A DNA stretch of 64,000 nucleotides from Chrysoperla carnea (lineage: Eukaryota; Arthropoda; Insecta; Neuroptera; Chrysopidae): contig NC_058339.1 of assembly GCF_905475395.1 (NCBI RefSeq), forward strand, positions 17,430,001 to 17,494,000. Direction: 5' to 3'. Below, in pieces: positions 21,641 through 61,792 of this stretch; positions within the stretch are counted from its first letter, which is position 1; each line of letters opens with the position of its first letter. The position numbers and the translations under genes were made by a program. The notes under the pieces are model-generated. The model made no database searches and was not told the origin of the DNA. It was given only the letters and a program-made list of their open reading frames with translations.

Positions 21641-21879
21641 CTTTGTATATTTCATATATACATGTTATAAAAAACAAAATCTTTTACAATTCAGATGAAT
21701 TCACATGAAAAAGCTTCTACTTTAACACTTATTTTGTTTTTATGCTACTTCACCACTGTATAAAAAAATTTTATTTCACAAATTTCACATATGCGTGTAT
21801 GGTACTTCAACATTCTACTTAATTCACGTAGATTTACTTGGATTCTATGAATAAATATTTCAACTTATAAAATTTCGAT

Positions 21880-22330
21880 AAAATTTAGTGTATAAGGTAA
21901 TTTTGATCCAAAAAGTAAAAAAAATGGGTGCATTTACTGACTGATCGAATAGTTTTTGAGATACGAACTAAAATCGATCCAAATATTGCGATATCTCAGA
22001 AACTCTGCATCCAATCATTCAATTAACCTGATTATTTATACTTTTTAGATCAAAATTACCCCATCCATCGAGTTTCATCAAATTCCATAACAAAAATTAT
22101 TTTGCGTTTTTCTCGATTTTTTCAAAGAGGTAACTCCTTATAAAATTGCAAAAAATCTAGAAAATTTGTTTATCTCTAATTTCGATAAACATCATTATAT
22201 AAGGCAATTTTGACCCAGAAAGTACAAAAATCGGATGCATTTGTTGGCTGGTCGAATAGTTTTTGAGATACGGACTAAAATCGATCAAAAAATTGGAATA
22301 TCTCAGAATCTGGAAAAACCACCTGAAAAA
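21880..22330 (-). repeat. Dispersed repeat family B, copy 2
   Basis: An inverted copy of the 1355-1790 repeat, with the recurrent blocks gatccaaaaagtaaaaaaaa, gatcgaatagtttttgagat and catccaatcattcaattaac. A second half-copy follows directly from about 22200, so the motif appears twice in this stretch, as it also does at 34300-34760. Confidence 0.65.
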
Positions 22331-26984: not shown

Positions 26985-27610
26985 TCTATTACAGCTAGGT
27001 TAATTTTGTTTAGTCATAAAGTTAAAAAATTCGATTTTTTTGATAACACAGGCAAATTTGATCCGATCTTATCGGAATTTTTTTGAAACCCACTAATTTG
27101 AGGTCATTCTTTTCAGCTGTGATGTCAATTTTTCACTAGCTATCACTTATGTGCTTAATTCAGGAACTAGGACTCCACATTCTTGAAACCTATTAGAGCT
27201 AGGTTAATTTTGATTACAAATTTGAAAAGTATGGCCCAAATTTAGTAAGATTACATACGTGGTTTATCAAAATTGGATAAAATTTGAATGAGATAGAGCA
27301 AAATTAAATTTTTTGAATTCTGATGACGTCATAAAGGTTAAAAATTCGATTTTTTTGATAACACAGGCAAATTTGATCCGATCTTAATGGAATTATTTTT
27401 TAAACCCACTAATTATGGGTCATTCTTTTCAGCTGTGATGTCAATTTTTCGCTAGCTATCACTTATGTGCTTAATTCCAAAACCATGGCTCCACATTCTT
27501 GAAATCTATAGAAGCTAGGTTAATTTTGTTAACAAATTTGAAAATTATGATCCAAATTTAGTAGGATTACATACTTGGTTTATCAAAATTTGATAAAATT
27601 TTAATTTAAA
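26985..27610 (+). repeat. Tandem repeat, two units of about 315 bp
   Basis: The block ttcgatttttttgataacac followed by aggcaaatttgatccgatct starts at about 27030 and again at 27345, giving a period of 315 bases. Both units continue through the same ordered landmarks (attcttttcagctgtgatgt, ctagctatcacttatgtgct, ccacattcttgaaa, gctaggttaattttg). A partial upstream piece begins near 26985. No open frame is conserved between the units, so it is a non-coding tandem duplication. Confidence 0.8.
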
Positions 27611-34299: not shown

Positions 34300-34760
34300 G
34301 GGGAACTCTACATTTTGTGAAAATGAAGTTTTCTATAGGTCCATTAAATTAACCTGATTTTTATACTTTTTGGGTCAAAATTACCCCATCCACCGAGTTT
34401 CATCAAATTCCAAAACAAATTTTTTTTTGCGTTTTTCTCGATTTTTGCAAAGGGGTACCCCCCTTAAAAAAATTGCAAAAAATCGAAAAACTTGTTTTAT
34501 CTCCAATTTCGATAAAACTCAGTATATAAGGTAATTTTGACCCAAAAAGTACAAAAATCGGGTGCATTTGCTGACTGGTCGAATAGTTTTTGAGATACGG
34601 ACAAAAATTGATCAAAATATTGGGATATCTCAGAAACTCTGCATCCAACCATTAAATTAACCTGATTTTTATACTTTTTTGATCAAAATTAACTTATCCA
34701 CTGAGTTTCATCAAATTCCAAAATTTTTTCAAAGCGGTCAAACCTACAACACTCATTTTA
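34300..34760 (-). repeat. Dispersed repeat family B, copy 3
   Basis: A third copy of family B in the same orientation as 21880-22330, with the blocks gttttctataggtccattaa, attaacctgatttttatact and ttgaccgaat-type phrases occurring twice. It ends about 370 bases before the Mob4 start codon. Confidence 0.65.
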
Positions 34761-35131: not shown

Positions 35132-36981
35132 ATGAAGATGGCCGATGGAACATTAAGTTTGCGGAGAAATAGGCCTGGTACTAAAGCAAAGGTTGATAAT
35201 TTTTTTAAATATTATTATTATTTATCACAAAGTTTATCCATAAACAATAATAATACTTTGCATGAATTTTATTTATTTATAAAATGTCATAGACAATAAC
35301 CTATACCAATACTTCTGTCATTGTCTACATTGACAGAAGAATGTAAAATAAAACTTATGCAGAATAAATGTAAAAAGTATTTTTTTTATTCGTTATTCTC
35401 TTTACTAGGACTTTAGCCGATGGCCTGATGAACCTTTCGAAGAAATGGACAGCACTCTTGCTGTTCAACAATATATACAGCAAATGATACGTAATGATCC
35501 ATCAAATATAAATTTTATATTATGCATGCCAGACGCTCAAGATGAAGGTGTTTGGAAATATGAACATTTAAGACAGTTTTGCATGGAGTTAAATGGCTTA
35601 GCAGTTAGACTTCAATCAGATTGTCATCCAGATATTTGCACTCAAATGACTGCTACAGAACAGTGGATATTTCTTTGTGCTGCTCATAAAACACCTAAAG
35701 AATGTCCAGCTATTGATTATACAAGACATACACTTGATGGTGCCGCATGTCTCCTAAACAGTAATAAATACTTCCCAAGTCGGTGAGTAAAAAACATTTA
35801 ATTCGATGTTTTCAAAATTTGATTTGCGACCCATTTTATCTTATAAACACATTTTACTTCGTAAATAGGCTAGTTATGAGCACAAACTGCGCTATTTAAT
35901 TTAAAATTTGTTAAAAAATTGGTTTCCAAATTTAATATTCTGTTCAAATTGTTTAAAGATGTACTTAACTACTGTTTTTGGGGTGCAAAATTTGACAATG
36001 AATTATGAACACATGATGTTCATATAGTACTGCTCAAAATAAGCTTATTTAGCTAAACTTGGGTTTGTTGACATTGTTTTATACGGCAAAAAACCCACAT
36101 AGAAATTAAGTTCATCATCAATCCGTTGGCGTTGAACGTGGGGTTTTTAGATTTCAAACTCCCCGAATTTCTACGTCCGCTAAAGGATTGAAAGTATTGA
36201 ATTTAGATTCTGTAAATTGTGTACTACAACAATGTAATTTTTGGTCAGAATCGTGGAAATTCGAAAGATTGTGAACAATCAAAATATACTGATCGATTGG
36301 AAATTTTATGCTTAGCAACTTTTATTCAAAGTTTCTTTTTCCCTTAAAAGTACAATTTAAAAAACTAACAAAAACACGGGAAATTGTACATTGATAGAGA
36401 TTTTAAGATAAGAAAAAGTTTATAAATATAAATCTATCGACAATTTAGCGTCTGATAACTTTGGATAGACCTATTTTTTCTCTAAAATCCATGGTTTTCG
36501 AAAAATTAGCTGGCATACCCGTTACTTAATATTCGGTACATACGGTTTGTTACAGCTTCTACCATTTTTCCTAATCTAGAAATAATATCCATTTTAAAAA
36601 TTCATTAATTTTGAAACGCCACTGTTAAAAATTATTGGGATATGAAATTTTTTACGATTGTTTCAATATAATCTAGTTCAGAAAACACAGATTCATTTAA
36701 CCCATAATTAAAAATCTTTTTTTTAACAAAATATTCATTAATTTTACAGAGTCAGTATTAAAGAATCATCTGTAGCAAAATTGGGATCAGTATGTCGGCG
36801 AGTATACAGAATTTTTTCACATGCATACTTTCATCATAGGACTATTTTTGATGATTTCGAAGCTGAAACATATTTATGTCGTCGATTCACACAATTTGTA
36901 ACAAAGTACAATTTAATGTCTAAAGATAATTTAATTGTACCAATGACTGAGGAGGAAACAGTTGGTGAATCGGATGCGTAG
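35132..36981 (+). CDS. Mob4: MOB kinase activator-like 4 (Mob4/phocein), three coding exons
   Basis: Mob4 is a MOB-family scaffold protein of the STRIPAK phosphatase-kinase complex, where it works with striatin, PP2A and GCK-III kinases at membranes and in the cytoplasm. Coding exons are 35132-35191, 35409-35782 and 36750-36981. All junctions are GT-AG and the frame is kept (phases 0 and 2), giving 221 aa against about 225 in vertebrates. The start at 35132 gives [20 protein letters not shown], the conserved Mob4 N-terminus; an upstream in-frame ATG-containing extension is not conserved. The MOB fold spans about residues 30-205. The expected zinc ligands are present: Cys92, Cys97 (CHPDICTQM), His169 and His174 (SHAYFHH). 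The block [19 protein letters not shown] is intact. The gene stands alone, with about 8 kb of gene-free DNA downstream. Nothing is broken. Assignment to Mob4 rather than another MOB protein is very secure from its length and N-terminus. Confidence 0.97.
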
Positions 36982-39900: not shown

Positions 39901-42685
39901 TGTAAGTCCACCGCAATTGTTGTCTCTTTTAATAAAATATTTAGAATTAATTGTCGATATTTTAATATATTCTTTTGTTTTTGACTAGCTTAATTATAAG
40001 TACTATCATTTCTTGTTTTATACCCACCTTCTTGTATTTATCGATTGTTAAAAGAAGCATCGATTTTTGAGATAGATAATGAAGTGTGGAAAATAGTATT
40101 ATACGACCCTAGGCCAGAAAGTTGAATTTACTGGCGTGTGTCATACATCCCAGGGCATCCAACATTTTGGCCGTATGTTGTATAATATTTTTCTTTGTTT
40201 TCTAGCTGAAAGTACGCTCTAATAATCGTTTAAATGACGTTTGAAAGTTTGCTTTGATAACAATGTTTCTAAAAATTGCAAAATTATCAGATTGATTTTT
40301 ACACAAAATGAATAAATATACAAACTTTCATTTTTGAGTTCACTACTTAACCGATTTTAGAAAAATGCTTCATTATCAGCTAGTTACATGGGCTGGATAT
40401 CATTTTCAAAAAAAATAAGATTCCGCGCTAAAAAAGGCAAAATCCATTAAATAGTTAACAAAAGGGGAGGTAAGTGAAGGTAAGGCAAGTGAAGACTATA
40501 ACGCGGATAATTACTAATTATTTATTTAAACAATATTCATGCAACTTACCTTTATAAAAAAAAAAAATCACTTTTATGTGATTTATACAGTTTCCAGTAT
40601 TTATAAAGTGGGATCATCAGAGATCTCCATGTTATGAAGTTGGTAGTTCAATCGAAAATTTCCTGCCAAGAGTCCCACCATCCTTCTCAACTATGCTCTA
40701 TCAAATTTCAGGCGAGCACAGTATGCCCTGCGCCAAGTCAGAGCAGGTGCTATTTAAATACTCGTCTAATCAGGAATGATGAAGTGATTTGATTCTATTA
40801 AAAAATGTACTAGCTTGGTGATTTATACCAAAATTGGTTGTAGAAAATGGGTATAAATGTTGGCGTACAATAATAGACAGTAATTTTTTGTTGCCAGCCT
40901 GATATGTTAAAATACCGATTATTAAACATCCAAAATATTGGGAATATACACGAACAAATAACGCATGTTGTATCTTTTATAGTACAGGAGTTGGATTCGG
41001 GTTGACCTTCGCCCCTCTGTTTACCGAATGAAATTTATTTTTATGAAATGTAAAAATATTCACAAATATCCTTGTAATAAGTTGCCTAAAAAATAAGGTA
41101 AAGACTTCTTTTCTTTTAATAAATATCAAAACTGAAAGCTTGTAAACGTTATTTTTTTTACCAACAGTAGAGAACGACAAGATGCGATAGTAGAGAACTA
41201 CAAGAAGCAGACAACTCTGCTCTTGCATATTCCTTATGGTTTTTTACTTTCGAGTAGACCAAAAGTTGTTAGATATACAAATCAGTAAAAATTTCATTCG
41301 GTAAACAGATGAATGTAGAAAACCCTAATTCGGCTCTTAAGACTATTCGAAAAACTCTTCACTTTTTTTAATGTGTAATAAAATAAATCAAGTATTGAAT
41401 TATTGGATTTTATTATTCATAATTACAATCCGTAGTATAATTCTACAAAAGTAATATTAGATAAAGTCACTGGTTCTAATATTCAGTGACTATTTTCATT
41501 ATTAATGATCTCAGTCAGCATTTACAAACAATAAAACTTTTACAAAAAGACAATTAGAAATTATAACATGTGTATAATAACAAAAACTCCCTCACCCACA
41601 ATATTGTCAAGGCAAATATCAATGATATAAGGTTAGGACAAAACATTTTATATTTCTGTTTATACATACAATAATCTGTTTTTATTTTCTCAAATATATA
41701 TTTTATATTTTTTTTATTTTATATATAACTCAAAATACAAAAAAACGCACCACAAATTTTGTTAGAGCAAAGATAATTTTAAACAATTCTTCGTTAACTA
41801 TTTTATTTAAATATATCAACCAGGTCCAAAAAAAAATTTCCTTTTTCAGTAGCAGAGTTATAATTAAAATTTAAGTTTACCACAAAATATTGTAATCTGC
41901 ATAAATTCTGGGCTAGACTAGATGATACATGAAATAAGAAATTGTGCCAGTAATTTTTATCTTTCAAAAGTTGTGTTAGCGTAAATAAAATCAAAAACAA
42001 AATCTATTTCATATTAAACCCGGCTACTGATTAAACATATATAGTGTGTCCCCGGATAGAGGTAACTATACTTGTAAATTTTCTTATTTTGCATTTTAAG
42101 AAAAAAAGTCATTCTTTATAAGAAGTTTTGCTTATTCTGAAAAGTATGTAGGTATATTTAAAACTTCTTAATAATGTACAGGGTAGCCAAAAATTTGCAA
42201 TCACTATTTTTATTTTTGGTAAAATTTTATTTATCAAAATTTTCCAAAACTCCATATGACTTATATGATAATCAAATCCGATAATAGTATTGAATTTCTC
42301 CACATAAATTAATTCATTTCAAGAGGAAATTTTTTATCAAACATTGAATAATTTATAAATTAAATTAATTTAAGAACCAAAATAATACAAACGAAATTTA
42401 ATTTGTAAATCATGCATTAACCTAGTTAATATATTGAAAAATGAAAAATTAATATAAATCGTTACGAACAACGTTTACAGGTTAATAAATACCTGCCGTC
42501 ACCTATAAAATGCCGAATCAAAATCATTTCCGACAATTATGTGAATAGTAAATTAAAAAAATGTACATGAAATATCACAGAATATTTTCATAAAATTTCA
42601 ATGACTGTTATTAAAAAAAACCTGTAAACGTTATTATAGTTTTTCTTTGTTTAAAATTTTATTTACGATGTTATAATTACGAGTG
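36982..42685. other. Intergenic DNA, no gene seen
   Basis: Downstream of Mob4 I see only AT-rich sequence. A possible polyadenylation signal (aataaa) for Mob4 lies at 37025-37030. Open frames are short and have no recognisable product. Part of a MITE is present at 42043-42240. Confidence 0.6.
42043..42240 (+). mobile_element. Partial MITE related to 56780-57252
   Basis: The stretch begins tagtgtgtccccggatagag and continues with gtaactatacttgtaaattt and aagaaaaaaagtcattcttt, then gtacagggtagcc. The same series, in reverse complement, forms the right half of the element at 56780-57252. Only one half is present here. A third terminal fragment lies at 47125-47157. Confidence 0.75.
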
Positions 42686-44917: not shown

Positions 44918-47900
44918 TTAACGACGTAGTCCCCAAGCACCAGAGAATGGTGCTGATTGTGGTGGTGTAGCTTCAGTTGGTGGTGCTTGAGTACCACCAC
45001 GTGGACCAAATGATGGAAATTCTTCAACACTTGCTGTATTTGGAGCTTTTTGTTCCCATGGTGCTCCTTTCACAACAAAACCATTACCAGCTTCACCACC
45101 TTGTTGAGAACCATTTGTCTCTTCGCGATTAGAAGATGGGCGATAGCTTTCCCTCATTTCCGCTTCAGTTACATCTTCCATCTATATCAGAGAAAATTGT
45201 TATAATAAATTATAATTATTTAAATATTTAAAATGAAATACTTACATATTCTTCTTCTAAATTAAGTAAATGATCTTTTGCTTCTTGAACATTATCGTCA
45301 GCACCCATTATAACAACAAGATTAGGATCTGGGTCGTCAGAACGAGGGAATTTAATGTCAACTTTATAATCATCCATGATTTTACGAATGTTACGACCAC
45401 GAAAACCAATAAATCTTGAATGGACTCGTGCATCTAACGATACTTCTTCTCTGACCATATCATTCTAAATAAAATAATTTATATTAAGTTAAAATGAATA
45501 AAAATTTTACATTTCTTGAATGTTCTTTAAATTGTAGTAACTATTATTTCTAACAATAATTATGACCAATAATATGGGGTTCAGTTCTATTACATACCAA
45601 TTCATTAACGATCTTCATAATATCGTCTTTTGCAGCATGCGTTTTCTCTTCATAGCCAGTTATTGTTATGATACGTTCATCGGGATCACCTTTCTTTGGG
45701 AAATTTATTTGAACATTGTGATCAGTACGTATTTTAGTAATAACTGCTCCACGTCGTCCAATAATTTTTGAATGAAACTCGGGGTCAACTTCAATTTTCA
45801 ATTCAAATGATCTTGCGAGACGATCTTCACGATCGGCAAGCAATTGTTTACATTTTTCTTGAATAGCTACTTCAGCATTTTTAACATTAGCAGGCGTACC
45901 GGTGATCTGAATAAACAAAATTTAAATTACCTATTTAATTCTTAATTTTTTGATATATTTTAAATAAAATATTAGTCATTTCAACTTATAAACAAATATA
46001 CAAATACAAAATAATTCGAAAAACATTTTTGGAAAAATATTTTTTCTTTACCTTTATTATATCTAATTTTTGGTCAGCCGGCGAAAGTATGATATGAACA
46101 TCATATGTGTCCATTAACTCACGAACGTCACGTCCTTTTTGACCAATAATTGAACGATGGAAGTCAAATGGCACAGCTACCTCAATGGTAATAGGAACTA
46201 GATCTAAAAGTGCTTGTTTTGCTGCAAGACAATTAGCTTCTTTACCATTAATCCTAATGATATCGCAAGGTTTAACAGCATTTTCATCAATATCTCCATT
46301 TACTTGACCTTCTTGATACGAATCTACAAAGTAAAATTAATAATTACTTTCAAATTAAACAAGGGATTATTCATAAACCATGTGACCGGGTCAAGAGGCG
46401 GTACATAGCGAAAGGGGTGGGTCCAAAGTTGGTAGAAGTAAGCCTCGTAGTTTATAAACACTCCCCAATCAAAACATTAAAAAAAATTGTATGAATTACA
46501 AATCGAGAGAATAAACAAAATTTAGCATAAACGCTTAAGATCGACGGTAGACTCACGACCACTAAAAAAGGTCTTAATTGATAGGTTTTTATTACAGGGG
46601 GTGCTTATGTTCAAACTGTCTATAGGTGCAAAATTTCATAATCCACCTCTATTTAGCTATTATATAATAATAAATTCGTGAGCTATTATTTATATAGATC
46701 GTAATTAAAGATAATTTAACTGTTTTCATGTACACTTAAGTTTCTCATTACGTGATTTCTCCTAATGTTTTTAATATTCGTGCAAAATAAAAAAATTAAT
46801 GATAAAACTTATTTTGTAACTGTCTATCCTAATATTGGTTACAGTGCCGACCTTTATTTTCCACGGTGGCGCAAAGATCTAACTATAAAAGAGTTTTGGA
46901 ATCGATACTTGTAAAAAAATTTATACTTTCGAATTTTGAAATTTTATTTTGATAGCTTTGTGTCCATTTATTCTACGTTTCAAGGACTGAGAGTGTCACC
47001 AAATTAGTGTCGAGTTACATATTTTTCTGAAGGCCAGAAATCAGGAGAATAAATAGAATTAGCTACTCCTTACTGATTATGACTACATTATAATCAAAAT
47101 AAATATTTATAATACAAAAATTTAGTATAGTTACCTCTATCCGGGGACACACTGTATATTCGAATGAATTACTTGCAAATTTAAATTTAATTTGAATACT
47201 AACCTTGAATATCTTTATCTGGAAATTTAATCATAACATCAAATTCAGAAGTTATTTGTTGGACTTTTGATCCTTTAGCACCCATAACAGTACGATGATG
47301 TTTTTGAGGTATAACACAATCGATTGTAACCATTGATTCTAAGTCAGCAACAATTTCTTGTATACGTTGTTTGGCAGCTTCAATACAATCTTTAGCTCCT
47401 TTCAACACTACCCTATCACTTTCAACATTTGGTCGTGGAAAACTAATTGATACACCTCCACACTCTTCAGTGATGCGGTGTAAAACTTCACCCCGCCTGG
47501 CTACAAAGTGCTTATGATGTTGAGGTTTTACAGTCATTTCGCTTTCAACAATATTATCCTAGAAATTATAAAAGTAAGAATAATGATATTTGAAACCTTC
47601 AAAGTGTAATTTGACTGGATAAATAGCTATTTATTTAAAAAATACGTACGATTTCTTTTATGGTTGACTCAAGTTCCGCTTTTGCTTTAAGAACAGCATC
47701 TTGTTTTCCAATGATTGTAATGACTTCTTTATCTTCATCCTTATCAGTTGGAAAAACAATTCGTGCTCCAGTTGCATCACGAATCTTTTTGATACTAGCT
47801 CCATTTTTACCAATTAAGAATTTATGATGTTGTGGTTTAGCACGAACTTCAGCAGTGTAACTTGATAATTGCCGTTCTGATGTTAATTCCAATAATTGTT

Positions 47901-50078
47901 GTTTTGCTCTCTCAACATCATCTTTAGGACCTCGAATACTAACCTGAAAATATTTATTATAAAAAATAAATTCAAAAGATTTTCAAATGGCTCCTTTTTA
48001 AAATCGTAGCCAAATTAGAAAAGCCAACTTACTTTATCACTATTACTTTCGGCAGTGGGAAATTTGATAGTAACACCACCACAGTCTTCCATTATTGAAT
48101 GAATCAATTTTCCACCAGTACCAATAAGGGAATTATAAAATTTAGGTGGAATAGTAATTTCTTCGTTTACAATATTGGCAAGTTCAACTTGAATTTTTTG
48201 AATTCTATCACGTGCTTCTTCAACATTTTCTTTTTTCCCTGTAATTGTTATAACATCGCTGTTGTCACCCTCAGCAGGTAAGTCAATTTTCGTTTGAGTT
48301 TCATCACGAATTTTTCGTATATTTGCTCCTGCTTTACCAATAACAAACTTATGGAATTGTTTAAATATTGGAACATCCACAGAATATGATACTTCATTCA
48401 ATTGTTTGGCACGTTTTAATAAGTATTTTGAACATTTTTCAACTTCATCTTTTGGTCCACGTAATTTAACTAAATCGGGTTTATCACCTGGACCGGGGAA
48501 TGCAATTGCAACTTGTGGAAATTTATCTTTAATTTCTTTAATGTTTGCTCCTTTTGTACCAATAATGCTTTTATAATGTCTTTGATCAATGACAACGTCT
48601 TTTTGTACTTCGTTATCTAGTTTATCAATCATTTCACAAAGTTCTTGTTTCGCCTGTTGAACACCTTCATGATTACCTTCGATTCTAATAATGTTGGTAG
48701 CATCATTTTCGGTTATGTTGATCATAACACCAGTTTCATCTTTCAGCCTATTTACATTTGCTCCACTTTTTCCAATGATATGTTTACAATACTTTGGATC
48801 AACATTTAACTCAACGAATGTGAATTTCGATACTAAGTCATTTACAACACTTTCAATAGATGCTCGAGCTTTTTCAACTTCTTCAGGTTGGCCTTCGATC
48901 TTAATTTTATCTTCTGTAAATTCAACTCGTAATTTTTGGAAATCTCTAGTTAAATCTTTAATATTAGCTCGTTTTGGTCCAATAATATATTTATGAATCC
49001 ATGCCGGTGCTTCAATAATTGCTGTTAGACCTGAATTTGCCTTCTCATACACTTTACTTAATGCTAAACCCAATTTATCATGAGGACCTCTTAAAGTAAT
49101 TGTTCCAGTTGCCGAATCGCTTGGTGGTATTTCAACACTAACATTAGTTTCTTTTAGAATTTCGGCAATAGTACTTCCACGATGACCAACAACATATTTA
49201 TGTTGTGCTTTTGGAACTTCAACTGAAACCGTACCACATTTTTTCACCATATCTTTATGAATAGCTTCAATTTTTGCTTTTGCTAATAAAACACCTTCCT
49301 TTTCACCAGCAATAATAATTTCGTCTTTTTGTACCGAAGGTGGAGGGACATTAATTCGAGCTCCAGTTTCAGCAATCATTGCGTTTAAAGTTTCATTGTA
49401 GGCCCCAAAAATAAATGGATGATAAATTTTTGGAACGGATACACGTTCAAGTGCTTTACGGGATTGTTCTTCGGACCAAATACGTATTTCATGTTCTGCC
49501 TTTTCTACACCTTCTTTAGTTCCAGTTATAGTAATTATTTCAGAACTTTCATTGATATTTGGAACGTGAATTTTAGTTGCTGTTTGTTTTTCCAAATCTT
49601 TAAGTCGTTGTCCAGCTTTACCTAAAATAACTTTATGATGTTCCACTGGAATGGATAATTGCTTACTAGCTTGAGTTTGGAAATGGGTTAGAATTTTTCG
49701 GCGTGCTTCTAACACTTCATTTGTTTTTCCAGTTACCAAAAATGTTAAAGATTGATCTTTACTAGATGAAATTTCAATGTTTGCGCCGGTATCTTTTGAT
49801 ATTTGATAACATGTCCGTGTCGATTCACCTTCACCAAATTTATCGCTATGGTCAAATTTGCGTTCTTCATAAGGTACTCGTACCACTTGAGTAACCGAAG
49901 TGGATCCAACACGCATTTTATTATTCCATTGTCCTTGAGTATTCACATTTGGAACAGGGGTTACAGATTCCGGTAATGCCGGAAATAAGTCGTCGTAACT
50001 GCTTGCAGGGTTTTCATATGACGTAGTTGTTGTTGTAGTAGTAGTAGTAGTAGTTTCTTCCATCACTGCTTGCTGCAT
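44918..50078 (-). CDS. Dp1: Vigilin (multi-KH RNA-binding protein, Dp1/HDLBP type), seven coding exons
   Basis: Vigilin binds RNA through many KH domains and acts in mRNA localisation, stability and translation, tRNA handling and heterochromatin. Coding exons in transcript order are 50078-48033, 47943-47650, 47558-47204, 46323-46052, 45906-45598, 45464-45246 and 45181-44918. All are GT-AG and phases agree, giving 1252 aa (vertebrate vigilin is about 1268). I count 15 KH or KH-like modules: nine in the large first exon, one in exon 2, two in exon 3 and one each in exons 4-6. Intact GXXG loops include GKAG 153-156, GHRG 298-301, GKSG 436-439, GTKG 507-510, GKAG 581-584, GTGG 653-656 and GKNG 727-730. 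Divergent loops are GAYN 225-228, GPKR 367-370 and ARRG 800-803. The C-terminal tail carries the conserved GFVVKGAPW and EEFPSFG motifs. An 11-residue threonine run follows residue 8. Met1 (50078) or Met6 (50063) could start the protein. The next gene upstream is Aly/REF on the same strand. Confidence 0.96.
46324..47203 (-). other. Vigilin intron 3 with several repeat fragments
   Basis: This is the longest vigilin intron (880 bases). It holds a dispersed fragment near 46370-46470 (cattcataaaccatgtgacc-type start and a ggtacatagcg block), part of the palindromic MITE family at about 47065-47125 (cttactgattatgactacat), and a terminal piece of the 56780-type MITE at 47125-47157 (agtatagttacctctatccg). 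No coding sequence is seen inside. Confidence 0.65.
50020..50060 (-). repeat. ACT/ACA codon repeat in vigilin exon 1
   Basis: A trinucleotide tract encodes eleven consecutive threonines (ACT x6, ACA x3, ACT, ACG) right after the acidic start of vigilin. Such tracts often vary in length between individuals. The family does not need it for function. Confidence 0.85.
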
Positions 50079-50119
50079 ATTGATTGGGATGTCCTAATTC
50101 GTGCCAAGTCCTTACAGTA

Positions 50120-51709
50120 ACACTGTAACAGAAACATAAAAACATTTTTAAAACTTTAGTAGAACAAATTTTAAATTCTTGGATTCATTGGATTCTAAGC
50201 TCGGCGTGGTAGTACTCCTAAAATTGAGGGCCTTCAGACGTCGATAATTGTAGGGTTTTGCATTACTATAAAAACGTTAAAGCTAACATTTATCGCATCA
50301 ATAAATAGAACTATCACCAGTGTAACGAAATTTAAACATAAAAAGAAATGGAATGCTAAAAAATAAACTTCTTACTTTTAAACATTCATTCTTATTTTTT
50401 AAATTGAGCATGTCAAAATTAATATACGAAAATTGTGAAATCGATTTAATTTACTTAAATAATTTTAAATTTGTATGGTAAGACAGAAGCCTACAATTAT
50501 TAACTTTTGATAATATTTGTTTGTTATTTGGTGACGAGTAACATACACTATGAGAGTCATTACTGATAATGACTATATGGTAGTCGAAATACATATTTAT
50601 ATAATACAGAATTGATCTAGGATATTGGGGGGGAAAAATAGAAATTTAATTCGAAATATCTTAGAATTCTCATTTATTATTTTACCATAATTTATACACC
50701 ACGATGTAGCAAATAAATAAAATTTTTATTATCAGGATTTAATATATTTAATTCGTTATTCTCGGCAAGTTCTATAAGATTATAAAGTATATTATTAAAC
50801 TTTTCTGCTCGTGCAAGTTTAATCGAGTATTAAAGATATAATGAATCCATTTAACTGAGACAATACACCGTTGATTCGCTTGTGGATCTTTGGCTGTCTA
50901 TAATTCTACGCATTAAACTAAAATTAGCTAATTTAGACCATTTTTGAGCAGAAGTAACTCGAAAAATAATTAGTGTAGTGAAATTGAGAATGCTTAGGTA
51001 TAAAATCAAGTGAAAAGTCTTCAGTGAAATAAATCAAATTGAATTTTTTTTCTCCCAAAAGGCTCTTTGTCTGGCTCTCCATTTTTTTGTTCAAATTCTA
51101 CCACCTTCATTATATTTAGATAATTGCTTTTCAAGTTATTTGTACGCGCAAAGAGCTTAAATCTTCTAAATTTATTCGGGTAATTTTAGTTTCTTCATAA
51201 CCAACAATAATCAAGAGCCAAAAGGTCTTAACGAGGAATATTGTAGCCTCATTTATTAACTTTAATCGTGTTCTCTCTCATGCGTTAATTCTTAGATGCA
51301 AACTTTCTGTTAAGTCTCTAAAAGTCCAATGATTGATTTCGATAAAAATACTGATATTTTCAGTTGAAATCACAAGCTAAATTTATAAGATTAAAGATTA
51401 TTTTATCTTTTTTACAAACAAATTTGCGATAAATCGCAAACCATTTAGCAAATATTTTACCAATTATTCAAATAATTTTGGAATGTCATTTAAAAAAAAA
51501 AAAAAAAAAACATTGTTATCATAAATTCATTATATTCTTATCTTAAGGTTAAACATTCGTAAACAATTAAGTTCACAAACTTTACATGATAAATTTTACT
51601 GACGATAAGTAATTTGAAATATGAAAAACAAGGACTTTTCATAAAGGATGAAAATAACAATGGAAATTTAAGTAATTATTACTTTAGTGTTAAGGTATTT
51701 ATGACATGC
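50120..51709. other. Vigilin upstream region with a MITE fragment
   Basis: No coding sequence is seen. The part next to 50078 should hold the vigilin 5' UTR, probably with an upstream untranslated exon, because splice-acceptor-like sequence is present near 50108-50120 on the minus strand. A fragment of the palindromic MITE family (cattactgataatgactata, then tggtagtcgaaatac and ttgatctaggatattgg) lies at about 50550-50635. The remainder is AT-rich and unique. Confidence 0.5.
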
Positions 51710-51717
51710 TAAATAGG

Positions 51718-52348
51718 CAGGGTCGGATTTAATCTTTTGCCGCCCCATGATTGAAATATCACTCAGTTATGTAGTTTTGATATCTTTAAAAAAAACTATT
51801 GAGTCTCTTTGCACTCATTGTAGAACGTAAGTAGTTTTTAACCTTTTTCTAAAAACGATCGTTCTGCACTACAGTTTGTTACAGCTAACGTAATAAATAT
51901 TCTATTATTGCGATTTCTACGTTTGGAAGCTCAGTGTAAAGGTCGTTTGCTCGCAAAAGTTTCAGAAGATCGGAAGGTCAATTTTTTCCTATCGTTTTTT
52001 CAGTGCAATAAGCATAGCAAAAATACCCAAATTTAAATTTTATGATTCCAGAAAATTAAAAAATCAAATATTACCATTTCAAATCTTCAAAGAAATGAAT
52101 TAATTAAATTTTTTCGAAGACAAATTTTCACTAAAGGTGCCAAAATTATGATTTACAGTATTTCGATTTGACAAATATTGTATAAGTCGAATTTCTTGAA
52201 TTATCTATTAAATAATGTATGATTAATTAAAAAAATAAAAAATTTCCATTGAGAAATTTTGATGACAATAAGAAAATTTTATTCCACTTGCCAAATTTTG
52301 CCGCCCTGGGCACTAGCCCCGACTGCCCCTAGTGAAAATCCACCGCTG
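51718..52348. mobile_element. Short non-autonomous hAT-type element with 8-bp target-site duplication
   Basis: The direct repeat TAAATAGG lies on both sides (51710-51717 and 52349-52356). The termini are CAGGGTCGGATTTAATC on the left and, in complement, CAGCGGTGGATTTTCAC on the right. Both subterminal regions contain the ggcggca box (tgccgcccc near 51738; tgccgccctgggc near 52299), as in the hAT element at 42694. The two elements therefore probably belong to one superfamily group. No transposase remnant is recognised in the 631 bases. The TIRs match less well than those of the 42694 element, but the flanking duplication is exact. Confidence 0.82.
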
Positions 52349-53767
52349 TAAATAGGTACACTTCGCCATTAATACGTAAGCAAACTTTTTTTCAAATTAC
52401 GACGTATCGTTTTATTAACTATTATTAACATAAAATTAGTAAAAATTATCATTGTAATATTGGATGAAAGTTTAATGAATAATCTAATCAGATTTAAGTA
52501 GTAATGGTGAAACGTTAACCTTTAAAAATTTTAAACACCAATTCTTTTAAAATCTTTTCTAAATTATCAAAATTATTTTTTAATTGTATATGAAATAAAT
52601 TAATTAATTAAAAATTAATAAATTTATTAATATCAGAATTTCTATATGTAAGATAATAAATATTGTCTGGTAAAAGCATATGGTAATGACACGTTGCTAT
52701 AAAATTTTCATATGATCTAAAAAATATTTATTCAAGACTAAAATAAATAATCATTCATAAAATTAAACAAATATTAATATAATTTTTGTTAAATTCAAAC
52801 AATATTTTGAATAAATATTTTATAAGATCAGTTGACGTGTCACCTTCGATTTGACGTGGAAATTATTAACTTTTGGTACTTACTGTACTGCATATACAAA
52901 AAAAATCCGTCCTAATTATTGTAAATAATTCATGAGGATTCCCAGTTTCCTTGGAATGTCTTTCTGTAACAAAAAAAAACCGGATAAATATCCCAAAACA
53001 CTTTTTTTTAACTACAACACATTGCAAATATAAACCTCACGTACCGACTGCCAAGTCTAAAATGTGGAAGATTGGATTGCATGCGGACGCAGAGTGGAGT
53101 TACTCTGGTAGAAAGAAACAGAATCTGTTTCAATCTATTACATTGTCTTCGTCTATTTTTTTTTTTTTAAATTATGATTATATGCGTTTTTTATTACATT
53201 AATTCAAACTTATTATTTTTAATTTTTTTGTTTAATAAATTGTTTATTCGTTCTTTTAACACAATAAATTTTTTTTAGAGGTTTTGATGGTATAAAATAT
53301 ATTTTCTTTTTATTTACAATCAATATGACATCTTTTGAGTTTAAGATTTTCGCTAATAATTAAATAATGATATTCGATCAAAGTTGCCTTAGTTCGGATG
53401 TCAATAATGATTCCAAAAAAATTTATAAATTCTTTTATTACATTTAAATTTATTCGAAGAATAATTAACCTTTTTTTGAATAACATAAGTTTAAAAACAC
53501 TTTTTAAACTTTGTAAATATTAATGTGTTTCTAATATTTTTAAATTCATACGATTGCCTACGTGTCTCATGTTCAATTCGATTTAATAAAATATAAATAA
53601 TTCGTTTCGAATTTCGAATTTATAAAACGTTTTTAATATAATTCTTATGTTTATGTTGCAAATCTAATATTTGATGAATTTGAAATGATATTGTATAGGA
53701 GACGACACAACAATCGAATATAAATATTATCGAAGATAATAAATGAGAACTCTAGGATATGTCGAAA

Positions 53768-54037
53768 TAAATTTCGATTTTTGCCCCAATTCCTAGATCA
53801 GTTTTTTGTATTTTTAAAATACGTATTTTCGACTACCAAGTAGTCATCATCAGTAAGAATTAGCTAGTGAATGTTACTCTTTGCTAATTTGGTGGCGGAC
53901 TGCACTCCGCCACCAAATTAGCAAAGAGTAACATTCACTAGCTAATTCTTACTGATGATGACTACTTGGTAGTCGAAAATACGTATTTTAAAAATACAAA
54001 AAACTGATCTAGGAATTGGGGCAAAAATCGAAATTTA
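53768..54037. mobile_element. Near-perfect 270-bp palindromic MITE
   Basis: The sequence is almost its own reverse complement over 270 bases, centred at 53902/53903. The outer ends (taaatttcgatttttgcccc and the complement at 54018-54037) match, and the centre ggcggactgcactccgcc has only two mismatching positions. There is essentially no loop. Fragments of the same family occur at about 50550-50635 and 47065-47125. Such arms form a very stable hairpin in single-stranded DNA or RNA. The near-identity of the arms implies a young copy or gene conversion between them. Confidence 0.93.
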
Positions 54038-54242
54038 TTACAACAATCGAAGTTGATGTATAGGGTGTCGCGCGAATTGAAAAAGCTTCGTTGGAATCCT
54101 TCTTATCTGTTATTCAAATTAACCAGCCATCACTTCAAATGTTTGCTAATTTGAAACATTTAATGAATGATATGTAATAAAACAGAAATTTATTTTTCAT
54201 ACATAACACTACAAATACAATTATTATTGTTGAAATAACAGT

Positions 54243-54476
54243 TATCTTCTGTTCGTTTTTTCCTCAACGTATCTATCTTCACGTTCCATACATGTAATTG
54301 TTCTTTTACAAAATTCTTTAAATACATGCCCACATTTCTCGGGAGTGATTTCTTGAACTGTTTCCCTTAACATCTATTCTAAATGGTCTACATTTCTTAT
54401 CAGTCCTTGATATACCTTTTCTTTTAAATTGCTCCAAGGGAAAATCTATTGGGGTTAAGTCGGGAATTCGAGCTCG
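54243..54476 (-). pseudogene. Mariner/Tc1-type transposase C-terminal remnant
   Basis: Read on the minus strand, the sequence gives FPDLTPIDFPLEQF (resembling the SPDLxPIDFxLW region that holds the last catalytic residues of mariner-like DDE transposases). After a frame change, it gives MLRETVQEITPEKCGHVFKE and then a cysteine/arginine-rich end. The downstream helix pattern, ITPE...F..R...C, is typical of these transposases. Frameshifts break the frame and no N-terminal half is present. The family call is by eye and moderately secure. Confidence 0.65.
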
Positions 54477-54499
54477 CTAAAAAATCATTCTACCATGGA

Positions 54500-55490
54500 C
54501 TAATTCCTCTATCAAGCTCCACTTCTATCAAGCGACAAACTCTAGCGTTGGCATTTTTAATAAACTATAGAAAGTTTAAAAAATCAACAAAATTTTTCCT
54601 TTTTTTCGTTATACCTTGCATATTACATATATGCGTGGTATAAAAACTCTAGTCATGGCTAAAGAAAGCAGATTACTAATCTGGCTTAAATTGTTTACTA
54701 AATTAATTTTTGTTTGAATACGAAATTCGCATCGAATCTGAAAGAATGAATAAATGAAAACACAAAATATGTTATTAGATATTTCTTTTTATTTTGAAAA
54801 CAATTATTTTTAGTGCTTAAAAAATATAATCAAAACTCGATTCTCGAATTAAGATATTAATTTTATTGATTCTGTTAACGATAGTTTTGTATTTTTTATT
54901 TTTATACTTATATTTTTTTTTGTGAATTATTAATAAATCAAATGAAATCTTTTTTTCACACATTTTTTCTGATATATGATAAAAGAAATTTACAAAATAC
55001 ATTTTCCTAATTGTAAAATTAAACTAAAATATCTACTCTTATTTTGTTTGTTTGGATTCTTCAATTTGTATTTTCATTAAGTTTTCCTTTAAACTGTTGA
55101 ATTTGAGAAATAAAATTTATATTCCATGTAAAAGAAATCAAAAACAAGATTTAAAAATAATTATTTAAAACTTTTAAGTTAAAATTTAATATTGTCAAGG
55201 ATTTACAAAATTCTTGTATTTAAAAATACGAGTCAATTGTTTTTGATATTAATGAATTCATCGGAATAATTTAAGGAAAACTATGCTGAGACATTTTCTT
55301 ATGTAAAACTTAAATTGAATAAAAAATAACTTATAATGGCATAAGAAAAATCACAAACGAAGAAACATCATCGCGAGAAAGTGAATGGAAAACGTAAAAA
55401 AATCAGATAACAAACGTTTTCGTTATGGAAGAAAACGTTAAGTCTATTATTTTACACATCACACGTTTTGCCAGTCACGGCAAATTATTC
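54500..55490. other. Intergenic DNA; Aly/REF 3' UTR in its right part
   Basis: No coding region is seen. Sequence next to 55494 should be the 3' untranslated region of Aly/REF on the minus strand. It is AT-rich, and its small open frames are not supported. Confidence 0.45.
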
Positions 55491-55494
55491 ATAA

Positions 55495-58426
55495 TTATTT
55501 GGTTTCTTTGATATAGGCATCTAATTCTGCGTCTAATTCTTCCGCCGTTGGAACTGGTTTATTTTGATTTCTAGCACCTCGACCGCCACCACTTGCTGCA
55601 CCACCACCGCCTCCTCGAGGACCTAGACAGATAAAAAAAAATAAATGAAACATTAATTTTGAAGATAATATGAAAAAAATAAATAAAATTTGAGGCATTA
55701 CGGATAAAATATTAATTTATAAAAAAAACGTATCACGCCTGCTAATGTTAAAAATGCTGAAGTAGCTATTCAAGAAAAATGTAAACAATTGCTTGCCGAT
55801 CGTGAAGATCGTCTCGCAAGATCATTTGAATTGAAAATTGAAGTTGACCCCGAGTTTCATTCAAAAATTATTGGACGACGTGGAGCAGTTATTACTAAAA
55901 TACGCACTGATCATAATGTTCAAATAAATTTCCCAAAGAAAGGTGATCCCGATGAACGTATCATAGCAATAACTGGCTATGAAGAGAAAACGCATGCTGC
56001 AAAAGACGATATTATGAAGATCGTTAATGAATTGGTATGTAATAGAAATTAACCCCATATTATTTTTCCTAATTATTGTTAGAAATAATAGTTACTACAA
56101 TTTAAAGAACAGTCAAGAAATTTCAAACCACTACTAGCACAAATGAAAACGAATAAAATCTGGCTGGGCCCATATACCCAATGAGTGTTGAAAAATGTTT
56201 TCATACTTTTCGACTATTCCAAAATAGGGTATTATCGTTAGTCAAAAATAAATCATGAAATTTGAAAAAAATTAAAATTTATGTAAAATTGTACTTAAAT
56301 ATTCTGATTTCGAGTCATAAAAGAAAGCACTTTATTCTTAAAATATTAAAATTAAAAATCGTAATTTTTAAACTGTATATCACGTGACCTAAAACGTGGG
56401 TAAGCCCTGCTGTGATGTCATAGCGGTGTGAGTCATAGACCATCAGTTAATTCAGTGTAGACAGCTGGGTATAATATATACATAGATAATAAGTATTTAT
56501 ATTTATTATAATCAGATGTCTATGAACATATCTGCCAAAATTATTTGTGTTTTTTCGTATAATGATACCCATATTACGTCATCAAATTGGATACCCGCGT
56601 TTGTAACAGTTTAAAAAAGGTTTAAAATTTAATTTAAGTTTTTGGCAACAAATCGTGTGTATTTTTTCGAAATAAATTTTTGGTGGCTTTTTATTGCCAA
56701 AATCACCATTTTGAAGTACTTTTTCAAAAATAGTGGAATACCCTATTTTTATACTGTGAAATTAAAATACATTTTTATACAGTGTGTCCCAGTATAGAGG
56801 TAACTATACTTGTAAATTTTCTTATTTTGCATTTTAAGAAAAAAAGTCATTCTTTAAAATTACACTCTCGTATAGTACATGTTAATTGATTTATTATTAT
56901 TTTCTTTCTTACGTTTTTTTTATAATTAGAGCTTTTGTTCAAATAAAAAATGATGCTATAATTAAAGTACACGGATCTTCTTGATATTTTATATAAAGTC
57001 ATAATTGTTAATTTCGAATAACTTTTCTTAGTAACATTTCGCCAACTTATAAAAAAGAAGGGTAGTTTACCAAAAATAAAAATAGTGATTCCAAATTTTT
57101 GAATACCCTGTACATTATTAAGAAGTTTTAAATATACCTACATACTTTTTAGAATAAGCAAAACTTCTTATAAAGAATGACTTTTTTTCTTAAAATGCAA
57201 AATAAGGAAATTAACAAGTATAGTTACCTCTATCCGAGGGGGGGGGGACACTATATATTTGATGAAGGAAAAATGTTAACACAACATTTTAACAATGTTA
57301 AAATTCACACAAAGTATGTACACTTAAAAATTGTAACACTTTATATAAATTGAAAACCCACAAAATTATTTTAAAAACATTGCACCCATAATGCCTCAAA
57401 AAAAACGGTGCTTTGCACGAAACCAACCTCTTGCTTGTCTTTGTGGTTGCTTAGTATTTCTTGGTCTAGCTTGAAAACTTTTTCTTTCTCCTGCACCCAA
57501 ACGACCTCCTCTTAATACGGATGGAATATCGGATGTTGTAAGTTGAATGCTCATTGGTCTTCCATCTAATGGGACTCCATTATACTGCTTCATTGCCTTT
57601 ATTGCGTCAGCTTTTCTTTCAAATATAACATCAGCTGTACCCAATGATCTACCAGATCTATCATAATGTACAGCGGCATTTTTCAATGGTCCAAATTCAG
57701 CGAATAATTCTTGGATATCCGAATCAGAGACTCCGAAGTCTAGATTTGATACTAATAATTTAGTTGGACCAAGACCGGTAGTGGCAGCAAGACCTCTGCT
57801 TGCAGCTAATGCTTTTCGAACACCAAATCCATCGAACATATCATGCTTCCAAGCACTGTTAACATCTCCCTGCACATACATACATATTCTACGTTAAAGA
57901 AATAAAAATTTTATCACTGTGAGAGACGAATTATTAGCGGAGATATAACTATTTTTTGGTATATTAATGATTATTATAAAGATGGATATTCAAATACATC
58001 ACAAAAAAAAACATTACTAATACACAAAAATGTTTATTAATAGAAACATGATTTCATCAAAATGGTCACTTTGATGCGCACATGTCTTCTCAATAAACTC
58101 TCTCAGATGAGAACGCCATGAATTGAACACTTTGAATACGTTTCAAAATCCATCATGAAATAATTTTGTGAATAAAAATCCATGATTTTAAATTAATACA
58201 TGGAAATTCTCCTAACCCTGGTGTATTGCCTCTGAATGCCACCGAATTTTCTGCCTCTTTGAACACCTCCGGCACCAGCACGATTTTGTCCACGAAAACC
58301 TCCACGCCGTCCACCTCCAGGTGATCTTTGTGTGTTGTTTGTTCGACCTCCACGTCGGCCGCCACCACCACGTTTTTTATTTGATTTTATAATGTCGTCT
58401 AAACTCATATCAATTTTATCCACCAT
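55495..58426 (-). CDS. Ref1: Aly/REF mRNA export adaptor (THO complex subunit 4), three coding exons
   Basis: Aly/REF is a TREX component that binds spliced mRNA, the helicase UAP56 and the export receptor NXF1 in the nucleus. Coding exons in transcript order are 58426-58217, 57869-57428 and 55622-55495. All junctions are GT-AG (phase 0, then phase 1), giving 259 aa, the usual family length. The N-terminal UAP56-binding motif [18 protein letters not shown] (1-18) is followed by an RG-rich region to about residue 70. The RRM spans about 107-180, with RNP2-like KLLVSNLDF and RNP1-like [11 protein letters not shown] second RG-rich stretch (218-236) precedes the conserved C-terminal helix [14 protein letters not shown]. 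Intron 2 (55623-57427, 1.8 kb) contains an inverted copy of a vigilin exon and two MITEs. Reading through the exon 2 donor would add ten residues and a stop. The gene lies head to head with sedoheptulokinase. Confidence 0.95.
55735..56121 (+). pseudogene. Inverted duplicate of vigilin coding exon 5, inside Aly/REF intron 2
   Basis: These 387 bases align without gaps to the reverse complement of 45511-45897, that is, vigilin exon 5 without its first nine bases plus 87 bases of the following intron. By eye I count nine mismatches (about 97.7% identity): three in the 300 exonic bases, two of them synonymous and one Thr-to-Ala, and six in the 87 intronic bases. The KH frame is still open, with GRRG intact, up to a stop at 56050. 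The donor GTATGT is kept, but there is no acceptor AG at the left edge and no start codon, so it is most likely a non-functional fragment. It lies antisense to Aly/REF and opposite to vigilin, from which it was copied. Confidence 0.93.
56205..56765. repeat. Dispersed element with inverted 'aatagggtatt' ends
   Basis: Near 56210 the phrase gactattccaaaatagggta and near 56720 the phrase agtggaataccctattttta are inverted relatives. They bracket about 500 bases that include gctgtgatgtcatagcggtg and a gcttttattgcc-type block. This looks like a dispersed non-autonomous element inserted in Aly/REF intron 2. No other full copy is in the window, so the call is tentative. Confidence 0.45.
56780..57252. 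mobile_element. MITE with about 75-bp terminal inverted repeats, TA-flanked
   Basis: The left end CAGTGTGTCCCAGTATAGAG and continuing block gtaactatacttgtaaattt are matched in complement by the right end, which reads tatagttacctctatccgag followed by a run of about ten G and gacacta. Both arms extend to aagaaaaaaagtcattcttt. TA dinucleotides lie outside both ends. A half copy is at 42043-42240 and a terminal fragment at 47125-47157. There is no coding capacity. It probably belongs to a Tc1/mariner-type group, judged only by the TA flanks. Confidence 0.8.
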
Positions 58427-59154
58427 TTTGATTTATTTATTATTGAAATTTATTACAACTTAAAATATCTTTTTGCTTTAACGCCTAACAACAAACTGCA
58501 CTCAATGGCGTCGATTAAAAGGAAGCGTTTGTTTCTGCTATGAATTATGGGTAAGTTTTTTGTACAGCGCCATTTACATTGTACTACTTAATATAGGAAT
58601 AAAATATATTTTATCTTTATTATCTATTACATGCAATACTCTTTTTATTATTATTAAAAATATTCTTATTTCTAAATTTTAATAACTTTCAAGGGTAAGT
58701 TTTCGTTTTTAAATGAACATTTTATTGTAACATTGAAAATGTAATAAAATTAATGTTGAGATGATAATTTAAAATTATTTACAAATCATTTAAATCCTTT
58801 TAATTGGCCAATTATAATTTGACTAAAAAGTAGAGATGGAGGATATAAATTAAAATTTTTTTTTGCGGCAAATTTGAATAATGACTATTATTATAATTAT
58901 AATTATTATCGATATAATATTATAGCTATTATTTATAAATCAAAAATTGCATGTTATTTTGATTTACACATTTTTTTACACTCGATTGCATGTTACTAAT
59001 TTACTCCCACTCTTAAATATCCCGTCTGTACAATTTGTGATTTAAATTGAAACCTATTTTTAGATTGGTATAGATAAAATATTAATTAGAAAATTATTAT
59101 TTTATTACAGAGTATACAAGCTTCGAGTATTTTTAATTTTTGATAGAAACAACA
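58427..59154. promoter_or_regulatory. Shared upstream region between Aly/REF and sedoheptulokinase
   Basis: The two start codons, 58426 (-) and 59155 (+), are 728 bases apart and point away from each other, so both promoters must lie in or near this region. A splice-acceptor-like tttattacag ending at 59110 suggests that SHPK has an untranslated first exon upstream. The 100 bases next to Aly/REF are the least AT-rich part (around 58490-58540). I see no clear TATA box placed for either gene. Confidence 0.55.
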
Positions 59155-61792
59155 ATGTCAGATCGGCAATTACTTTTGGGAATTGATATTGGAACAACTT
59201 CTGTAAAAGTATGCGTTGTCGATTCAGAGACCAAAGAAGTTATTGCATCCCAACAAAAAGATACACAAGCAAATGTGCCTAGCGATCTAGGTACGGAAGG
59301 AAATAAACAGGATGTTCCAAAAATCATTTCAGCCTTTACTGCTTGCGTTTCTCGACTTCCAAAAGATTTATTACGACAGGTGAGTTACGCAATGTTATAT
59401 AATAAGTTAATTACAGTTACGTAATTTTATTGAATTTAAAAATCATTTATGTAGGTGTATCTAGATATGTCTTGTAAAACGATACGTATCTGCAGATAGG
59501 TACTGCCCAAAAAAGGTATAAATGTTTGCATTCTAAATTTCAAGGATATTTTTGACTAATAACTCGTTATTTCTAATTTCCATTTAAAACTCTTTTTCAC
59601 TTTGTCTATTTAAAGTGATTTTATCATTTATTTTGTTTATCAAAAAAAGAAGTATTTTAATATTTATTGTTAAATAACATAATTGTATGATAACCTTTTG
59701 TTCCTTGACTGATTCCCTGATTCCTTGATTAATTTTTTACAACAAATTCCAAATTTTTTACGTAAATCCCAAACTTGTTAAAAATGCTTTGTCTCATTTT
59801 TGAATCAATCAATAATAAAATAGATTCTCAAATAACAAGTACCATAATATTCCAAATATATTATTTTTAATCAAATGGTAATATTAGGTAGTTCGAATTG
59901 GAATATGTGGACAAATGCATGGTGTCATGTTGTGGAATGATGATGGCGAAGAATCACGTGCATGGAGTCGGATAGAACGAGAAGATAATACATTTATTCG
60001 ATATGATATTCCAAGAGAAAAAGTATCTGCGTTGTATACTTGGCAAGATTCTAGATGCGAGCCATCTTTTCTGGCTACTCTTCCAAAACCTCAATCTCAT
60101 CTTAAAACTTATACCGGATATGGATGTGCTACCCTATTCTGGATGGTTAAAAACAAGTATGGGAATATTTAATTAGAAATAAGACACTCAAAACCTTTCT
60201 TTGAACTTGAAAAAATATTCTTTTGAATATTTAAACTTTCAAAATTTTGCATTTGGAAATAGTTTGTATGTATATTAATCTTATCAAACAAGTTCATATT
60301 ATGAAGTTTGAAAAAAGGTTTTGGAGCATCCCTTATTAAAAATAACGATAAATCAACTTTTTTTTTAAATGTTTAAATATTTTAGACCTTCAAAATTAGA
60401 GAAGTATAACTGTGCTGGAACAATACAAGATTTTGTGGTGGCTATGTTAGGAAATTTATCAAAACCAATAATGTCTTCTCAAAATGCTGCTAGTTGGGGC
60501 TATTTTAATTGTACATTAAGTGATTGGAATAACGAAATTTTGTCAGAGGCCGACTTTCCAGTTAGATTATTACCCAAAGTTGTAGAGAATGGCCAAATTG
60601 TTGCCCACTTAGCCGAATGTTGGTATGGGATTCCAATCGGTACACCTATAGGTAAAAAAATTGTTTAAATATTTTAAAATTTCTTATTAAAATTTGTTTT
60701 ATTTTTAGGAGTAGCTCTCGGTGATTGGCAATGTTCTGTTTTAGCAACGATTGAAAATATAAGTGATGCAATTTTAAATATATCAACATCAGCCCAATTA
60801 GGATTTGTTTCAGAAAATTTTCAACCGCCATCAGATGAAGAAGAAATATCGGGAGATCAACCAACAAACGCTGTAGAATATTTACCTTACTTCAATGGAA
60901 AATATGTAATTGTAGGTGCATCATTAAATGGTGGAAATTGTTTAGCGGCATTTGTAAAAATGGTACAACAGTGGTGCTTAGATTTGGGTTTCTCTGTTCC
61001 ACAATGTGTGTATTTTAGAAGTGTATCTGGCCCAAAAGAATCATTGACCACAACTCTTGCGACGATTTTTATCGTTCAAGGCTAAGATATGTTCCTTTGA
61101 CCGATTCAAATAAGTTAATATTCTACTCTAATTCAATTTTTGCTAGGGCAATGTATGTTCTCATCGTCTTGGAAACTATTTTTATAGATATTCGAAATGA
61201 TCGCTCGAAAATTTAAAGTTAAGAAATATATCTTCAGATCCCTACCCCAGAGCCAGAGTCAGAGTCAATGATACCTTGGGTTAGATTTAGCAATTTTCAA
61301 TTTCAGCTTAATTATATTTGAATTTGATATAATGAATATGTATTTTTATAGCTACGTTATGGACTAAATTAATTGGATTAGCTTCTGAAGATAATGCGGT
61401 TTCAACTTTACGAGTAACACCAACTTTATTAGGAGAACGATCAAAGCCTGAACAAAACGCCAGCGTTCAAAATATCGATCTAAGTAATTTAGGATTAGGT
61501 CAGATGTTTCGAGCGTTATGTCGTAGTTTAATTGAGAACTTACACAAGTTAGTATTTATTTATATAATAGTTTTTTTTATTGTTGTTATTTAATCCGTTT
61601 GCTTTTAGGTTATTACCTAAGGAATTATTAATTGAATCAAATATACAACGTATTGTTGGAAACGGTTCAGGTTTATCCCGTAATAAAGTATTACAAAAAG
61701 AAGTTCAAGATATTTACCAATTACCATTAATTTTTACTTCTGGTGGAGATGCAGCTCGAGGAGCTGCATTGGCTGTTGCCCCAGAACAATGA
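59155..61792 (+). CDS. Shpk: Sedoheptulokinase (FGGY carbohydrate kinase), six coding exons
   Basis: This enzyme phosphorylates sedoheptulose to sedoheptulose 7-phosphate with ATP, feeding the non-oxidative pentose phosphate pathway in the cytosol. Coding exons are 59155-59379, 59888-60156, 60386-60651, 60709-61005, 61352-61547 and 61609-61792. All are GT-AG with consistent phases, giving 478 aa, the same as human SHPK. The N-terminal phosphate-binding loop LLGIDIGTTSVKV (7-19) and the GQMHG block (83-87, in ICGQMHGVMLWNDDG) are present. So are the CAGTIQDFVVAML and TPTLLGER blocks, which mark SHPK rather than glycerol or xylulose kinase. The C-terminal nucleotide-binding signature VGNGSGLSRN (434-443) and GGDAARGAAL (463-472) are intact. 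The ATG at 59155 is preceded by an in-frame non-ATG extension only. A polyadenylation signal, AATAAA, lies at 61809. It is head to head with Aly/REF. Substrate is inferred from family membership. Confidence 0.94.

Follow-up and report, generated by a model that had tools for sequence, protein, structure and literature searches.

An inverted copy of part of a vigilin exon and its adjoining intron in an intron of the neighbouring Aly/REF gene of Chrysoperla carnea

The second coding intron of the Aly/REF gene in this 64-kb stretch of Chrysoperla carnea DNA (the window, by which we mean the whole stretch analysed) carries an inverted copy of a piece of the neighbouring vigilin gene, and we suggest that it probably arose as a small dispersed inverted duplication at the DNA level, a templated insertion taken in inverted orientation from vigilin, 9.8 kb away. 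Copy and source agree at 378 of 387 positions (97.7%) when the copy is set, ungapped, against the reverse complement of the source, and the facing ends of the two arms lie 9,837 bp apart; the ungapped match and the inversion across about 10 kb are both as the sequence-only reading had described them. The best local alignment of the arms (45505-45897 against 56127-55735, 382/393 identical, 97.2%) outgrows this 387-base core by six bases at one end, two of them mismatched, and its blastn E value of 0.0 rules out chance similarity. A blastn search with the source (E up to 1e-3) found no third copy within the 64-kb window.

The two genes involved are laid out in Table 1. Vigilin exons 2-7 have GT...AG borders and join in frame, Pfam KH_1 matches eight stretches in the large first exon and six in the 570 aa that exons 2-7 encode, and the top PDB match of exons 2-7 is a vigilin chain (E 4.7e-28). 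No relatives of the large exon were found among viral and prokaryote contigs. The limits given for vigilin are those of its coding part. The Aly/REF protein has an RRM and a C-terminal FoP_duplication domain, with THO complex subunit 4 as its top PDB match (E 4.2e-52); the last base of its first exon reflects a choice between two in-frame joins. The gene is intact, its three coding exons joining in frame around the copy, with the splice acceptor 112 nt from the end of the copy. Since vigilin exons 2-7 and the three Aly/REF exons are all in frame, the sequence would have been inserted without rearrangement of either gene.

Table 1. Positions in the window of the two genes, their coding exons, and the source and copy of the duplicated piece
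Feature	Position	Strand	Evidence
Vigilin gene, coding part, seven coding exons	44918..50078	-	ORF and donor (exon 1), splicing of exons 2-7, KH domains, PDB vigilin chains
Vigilin large first coding exon	ORF 48015-50093, donor after 48033	-	ORF, donor
Vigilin coding exon 2	47943-47650	-	in-frame splicing
Vigilin coding exon 3	47558-47204	-	in-frame splicing
Vigilin coding exon 4	46323-46052	-	in-frame splicing
Vigilin coding exon 5, 309 bp = 103 codons, one KH domain	45906-45598	-	frame, splice borders, KH_1
Vigilin coding exon 6	45464-45246	-	in-frame splicing
Vigilin coding exon 7	45181-44918	-	in-frame splicing
Source of the copy, in the vigilin gene	45511..45897	-	378/387 ungapped
Aly/REF gene, coding part, 259 aa	55495..58426	-	splicing, domains, PDB match
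Aly/REF coding exons	58426-58217, 57869-57428, 55622-55495	-	in-frame splicing
Aly/REF second coding intron, carrying the copy, 1.8 kb	55623..57427	-	splice borders
Inverted copy of part of vigilin exon 5 and 87 bp of intron	55735..56121	+ (vigilin sense)	378/387 ungapped

The copy begins at base 10 of vigilin exon 5, passes through the donor (GT at 45597) and ends within the following intron, so that it holds 300 of the 309 exon bases and 87 of the 133 intron bases; the first nine bases of the exon and the splice acceptor are lacking, and there is no stop codon in the 300 exon bases. The earlier description of the piece as exon 5 plus adjoining intron thus holds for the intron and not for the whole exon, and its description as recent is to be taken solely as a statement of the 2.3% divergence between the arms. 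With high identity, collinearity, and 87 intron bases and the donor included, the copy has the features of a dispersed inverted duplication at the DNA level.

The ends of the copy bear none of the transposon or retrocopy hallmarks that were looked for with the ends shifted by up to 8 bases, Helitron ends having been judged by eye only. Exact direct repeats flanking the copy, sought up to 8 bases from its ends, reach 4 bases at most, in a single 4-mer, so that no target-site duplication of more than 4 bases was seen there; the copy has no terminal inverted repeats, its best terminal inverted match being 9/15; and there is no poly-A tail on the side that would fit the vigilin sense, the A tract sitting instead 5' of the sense piece. 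A processed retrocopy is rejected on these grounds together with the intron and donor that the copy retains, and the same observations uphold the earlier claim of a DNA-level event rather than retroposition. The A8 tract adjoins the left junction, and great-ape genomes show an excess of A/T tracts near template-switch sites (PMC7954356). Since DNA with 28% G+C, as here, is rich in tracts of this kind, the tract speaks weakly for a template switch. Sixteen bases at this junction (55717-55732) recur inverted at 56910-56925, within a nearby element with terminal inverted repeats (TIRs), and this might point to a two-step template switch with filler copied from that element. None of 300 dinucleotide shuffles of the intron part reaches the score of this 16-mer, but 13 of 60 third-order Markov sequences score as high over the whole intron, and a control flank, on the 5' side of the source, likewise has a 16-mer elsewhere in the window.

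If the templated insertion is correct, a break or stalled fork would have arisen in the Aly/REF intron, and the DNA end would have copied, in inverted orientation, a vigilin stretch of some 390 bases lying 9.8 kb off, before being rejoined. The mechanism would presumably be of the fork-stalling/template-switching type or microhomology-mediated break-induced replication. Copying most plausibly ran from vigilin to the Aly/REF intron, since the vigilin gene is intact and the acceptor is missing from the copy. The patch would have left both genes intact and would since have drifted, probably close to neutrality, as an exon-derived pseudogene fragment.

Other origins must be weighed against this one. 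A mobile element might have captured vigilin DNA and the copy might belong to it, as the TIR element in the same Aly/REF intron (56776-57258) could suggest, along with an inverted pair of TTTGAGGCATTA near both ends of that intron (55689-55713, 57376-57400). However, the copy itself is without terminal repeats or a target-site duplication of more than 4 bases, the window holds no third copy, and the intron-end pair is no more than chance can give, since 7 of 60 Markov sequences score as high; capture by an element with terminal repeats is therefore rejected (Helitron ends, again, by eye only), and we regard a mobile origin of any kind as quite unlikely. The intron bases could also be explained by copying through RNA, whether unspliced vigilin pre-mRNA was reverse-transcribed or RNA served as a template for repair, given that intron retention is conceivable in a partly processed transcript. 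Such RNA-mediated copying is highly unlikely, however: there is no poly-A where the vigilin sense would call for it, the A tract stands 5' of the sense piece instead, and flanking direct repeats reach 4 bases at most.

It is also conceivable that the copy is an artefact of the assembly, an amplification chimera or a misjoin. Inverted pieces separated by a few kb are a chimera type that is known. A simple chimera would nevertheless suit poorly a copy with two junctions and both Aly/REF flanks in frame, and just as poorly the nine differences between the arms, six of them in the intron part; we hold an artefact to be very unlikely. Paired inverted duplicates at the ends of a segment are, further, the footprint of an inversion with staggered breaks (PMC7584159), and an inversion of 45898-55734 could in principle have left the arms behind. 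That segment, however, contains the first four vigilin coding exons and the final Aly/REF exon, so that flipping it would break both genes. As the two reading frames now run unbroken past the arms, neither gene would have been whole before such an event, which fits only as an inversion followed by a back-inversion. Judged from the in-frame vigilin and Aly/REF genes, this origin is rejected as extremely improbable. A templated insertion therefore remains our preferred origin, and the copy, while genuine, looks like an ordinary kind of mutation.

The differences between the arms are unevenly spread, with 3 in the 300 exon bases and 6 in the 87 intron bases. Those in the exon are all transitions, two synonymous (CGT/CGC, Arg/Arg; CAC/CAT, His/His) and one nonsynonymous (ACA/GCA, Thr/Ala), and those in the intron (45520-45584 against 56112-56048) are, all six, A-C or G-T transversions. 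The contrast in divergence gives a Fisher p of 0.005, or 0.13 if neighbouring changes are counted as single events, and the split of transitions and transversions between the two parts gives p 0.012; the differences are clustered (p 0.003), with p 0.051 for the longest clean run. Few events may underlie the intron changes, since five of the six fall within 22 bases. Such a pattern is not easily obtained by simple drift of the copy; any one of later gene conversion from vigilin, a multi-base copying error, and descent from an older allele of that intron could account for it. When the ORFs are read by eye, Thr is seen at the Thr/Ala site in several of the other KH units of this vigilin, and Lys, Arg or Ile in some others, which suggests that it was the copy that changed.

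We also considered whether the copy could act on its source. Both genes lie on the minus strand, whereas the plus strand is the one on which the copy reads as vigilin sense. The geometry thus bears out the earlier claim that the Aly/REF pre-mRNA would be antisense to vigilin there; by that geometry, it would contain 387 nt complementary to the vigilin pre-mRNA, the exon-5 donor included. The copy might then be a source of antisense RNA or siRNA, RNA from the Aly/REF intron pairing with vigilin RNA and lowering it or altering the splicing of exon 5. As for the capacity to pair, 264 of the 367 21-mers of the copy match the source perfectly, the longest perfect run between the arms is 170, and the predicted duplex energy of the arms is -639 kcal/mol. 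There are precedents in the antisense pseudogene antiNOS of Lymnaea (PMC7878882, PMC3449122), in Drosophila hairpin RNAs derived from their own targets (PMC10292708) and in miRNA genes derived from targets (PMC3237417). However, the same pairing capacity would be found in any recent inverted copy, the sequence gives no mark of selection on this one, and the spliced Aly/REF mRNA would not carry the copy because it is intronic, all of which leaves an antisense or siRNA role decidedly unlikely. None of the computed results favours a function, and it would be surprising if the copy had one of any kind. Among the literature matches listed for vigilin with antisense, no title concerned such an arrangement, from which we do not claim absence.

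A young cis-linked circuit, with Aly/REF intron RNA lowering vigilin or promoting in-frame skipping of exon 5, is likewise a long shot. Were it true, the skipped exon would remove 309 bp, or 103 codons, as one KH-bearing exon. Both arms would be present in any transcript that read through from Aly/REF into vigilin, and such a transcript could form a 387-bp hairpin. If expressed, the copy would represent antisense regulation at its very beginning; were it silent, it would be ordinary genome noise. An inverted repeat of 97.7% identity across two conserved genes could also promote harmful inversions, as any recombination of one arm with the other would flip 45898-55734 and disrupt the two genes, and the repeat should hence be a mild liability. 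This is, in any case, a clean example of an inverted coding-exon copy that landed in a neighbour's intron with neither gene broken, and inserts of this type have been proposed as raw material for antisense and hairpin-RNA loci.

We note that the window holds several other repeats. The TIR element in the second Aly/REF intron (56776-57258, about 480 bp) has 66-bp arms that are 95% complementary, looks Mariner-like by eye only, and has related sequence at 42037-42223 and a weaker piece at 47111-47158. Between Aly/REF and vigilin lies a 286-bp palindrome (53760-54045, 97.9% self-complementary), with a related piece (80%) near the vigilin start at 50536-50696. At 6740-7767 there is a long inverted repeat with ends TACGCT, whose arms, about 343 bp each, are 96.8% identical; it resembles a TIR element more than a local duplication. 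There are also a close direct pair at 27013-27605 (about 278 bp, 89.6% identity) and a repeat family at 1335-1627, 21871-22311 and 34342-34723, with about 88-90% identity and members in both orientations. Additional genes in the window are one of the Mob1/phocein family (35409-36981, Pfam E 1.4e-19) and one for an FGGY carbohydrate kinase (59137-61792, Pfam E 1.5e-08), which we take to be sedoheptulokinase. ARAGORN and Rfam at gathering scores returned 0 matches each.

The arrangement can be compared with several known systems. Drosophila inversion-breakpoint duplications resemble it in that a segment is flanked on either side by inverted duplicates (PMC7584159); in contrast to these, the segment here is so oriented that the two genes stay in frame. 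With antisense pseudogenes, and with hairpin-RNA or miRNA loci formed by inverted duplication, it shares an inverted piece of a coding gene in a transcribed region (PMC7878882, PMC10292708 and PMC3237417), whereas the arms here lie 9.8 kb apart in two genes and any antisense RNA, small RNA or effect is putative. Partial inverted gene duplicates are alike in being DNA-mediated, partial, inverted and close to the parent, and the youngest intrachromosomal duplicates of C. elegans are mostly adjacent and inverted (PMC4546093); the present copy differs from such duplicates in being most of one exon only, in another gene's intron, and no gene of its own. Templated insertions and template-switch duplications (FoSTeS, MMBIR) provide the remaining comparison: while 387 bp over 9.8 kb exceeds the short-range switches of PMC7954356, the likeness extends to a short piece of nearby DNA, its inversion, the lack of transposon marks, and an A/T tract at the junction.
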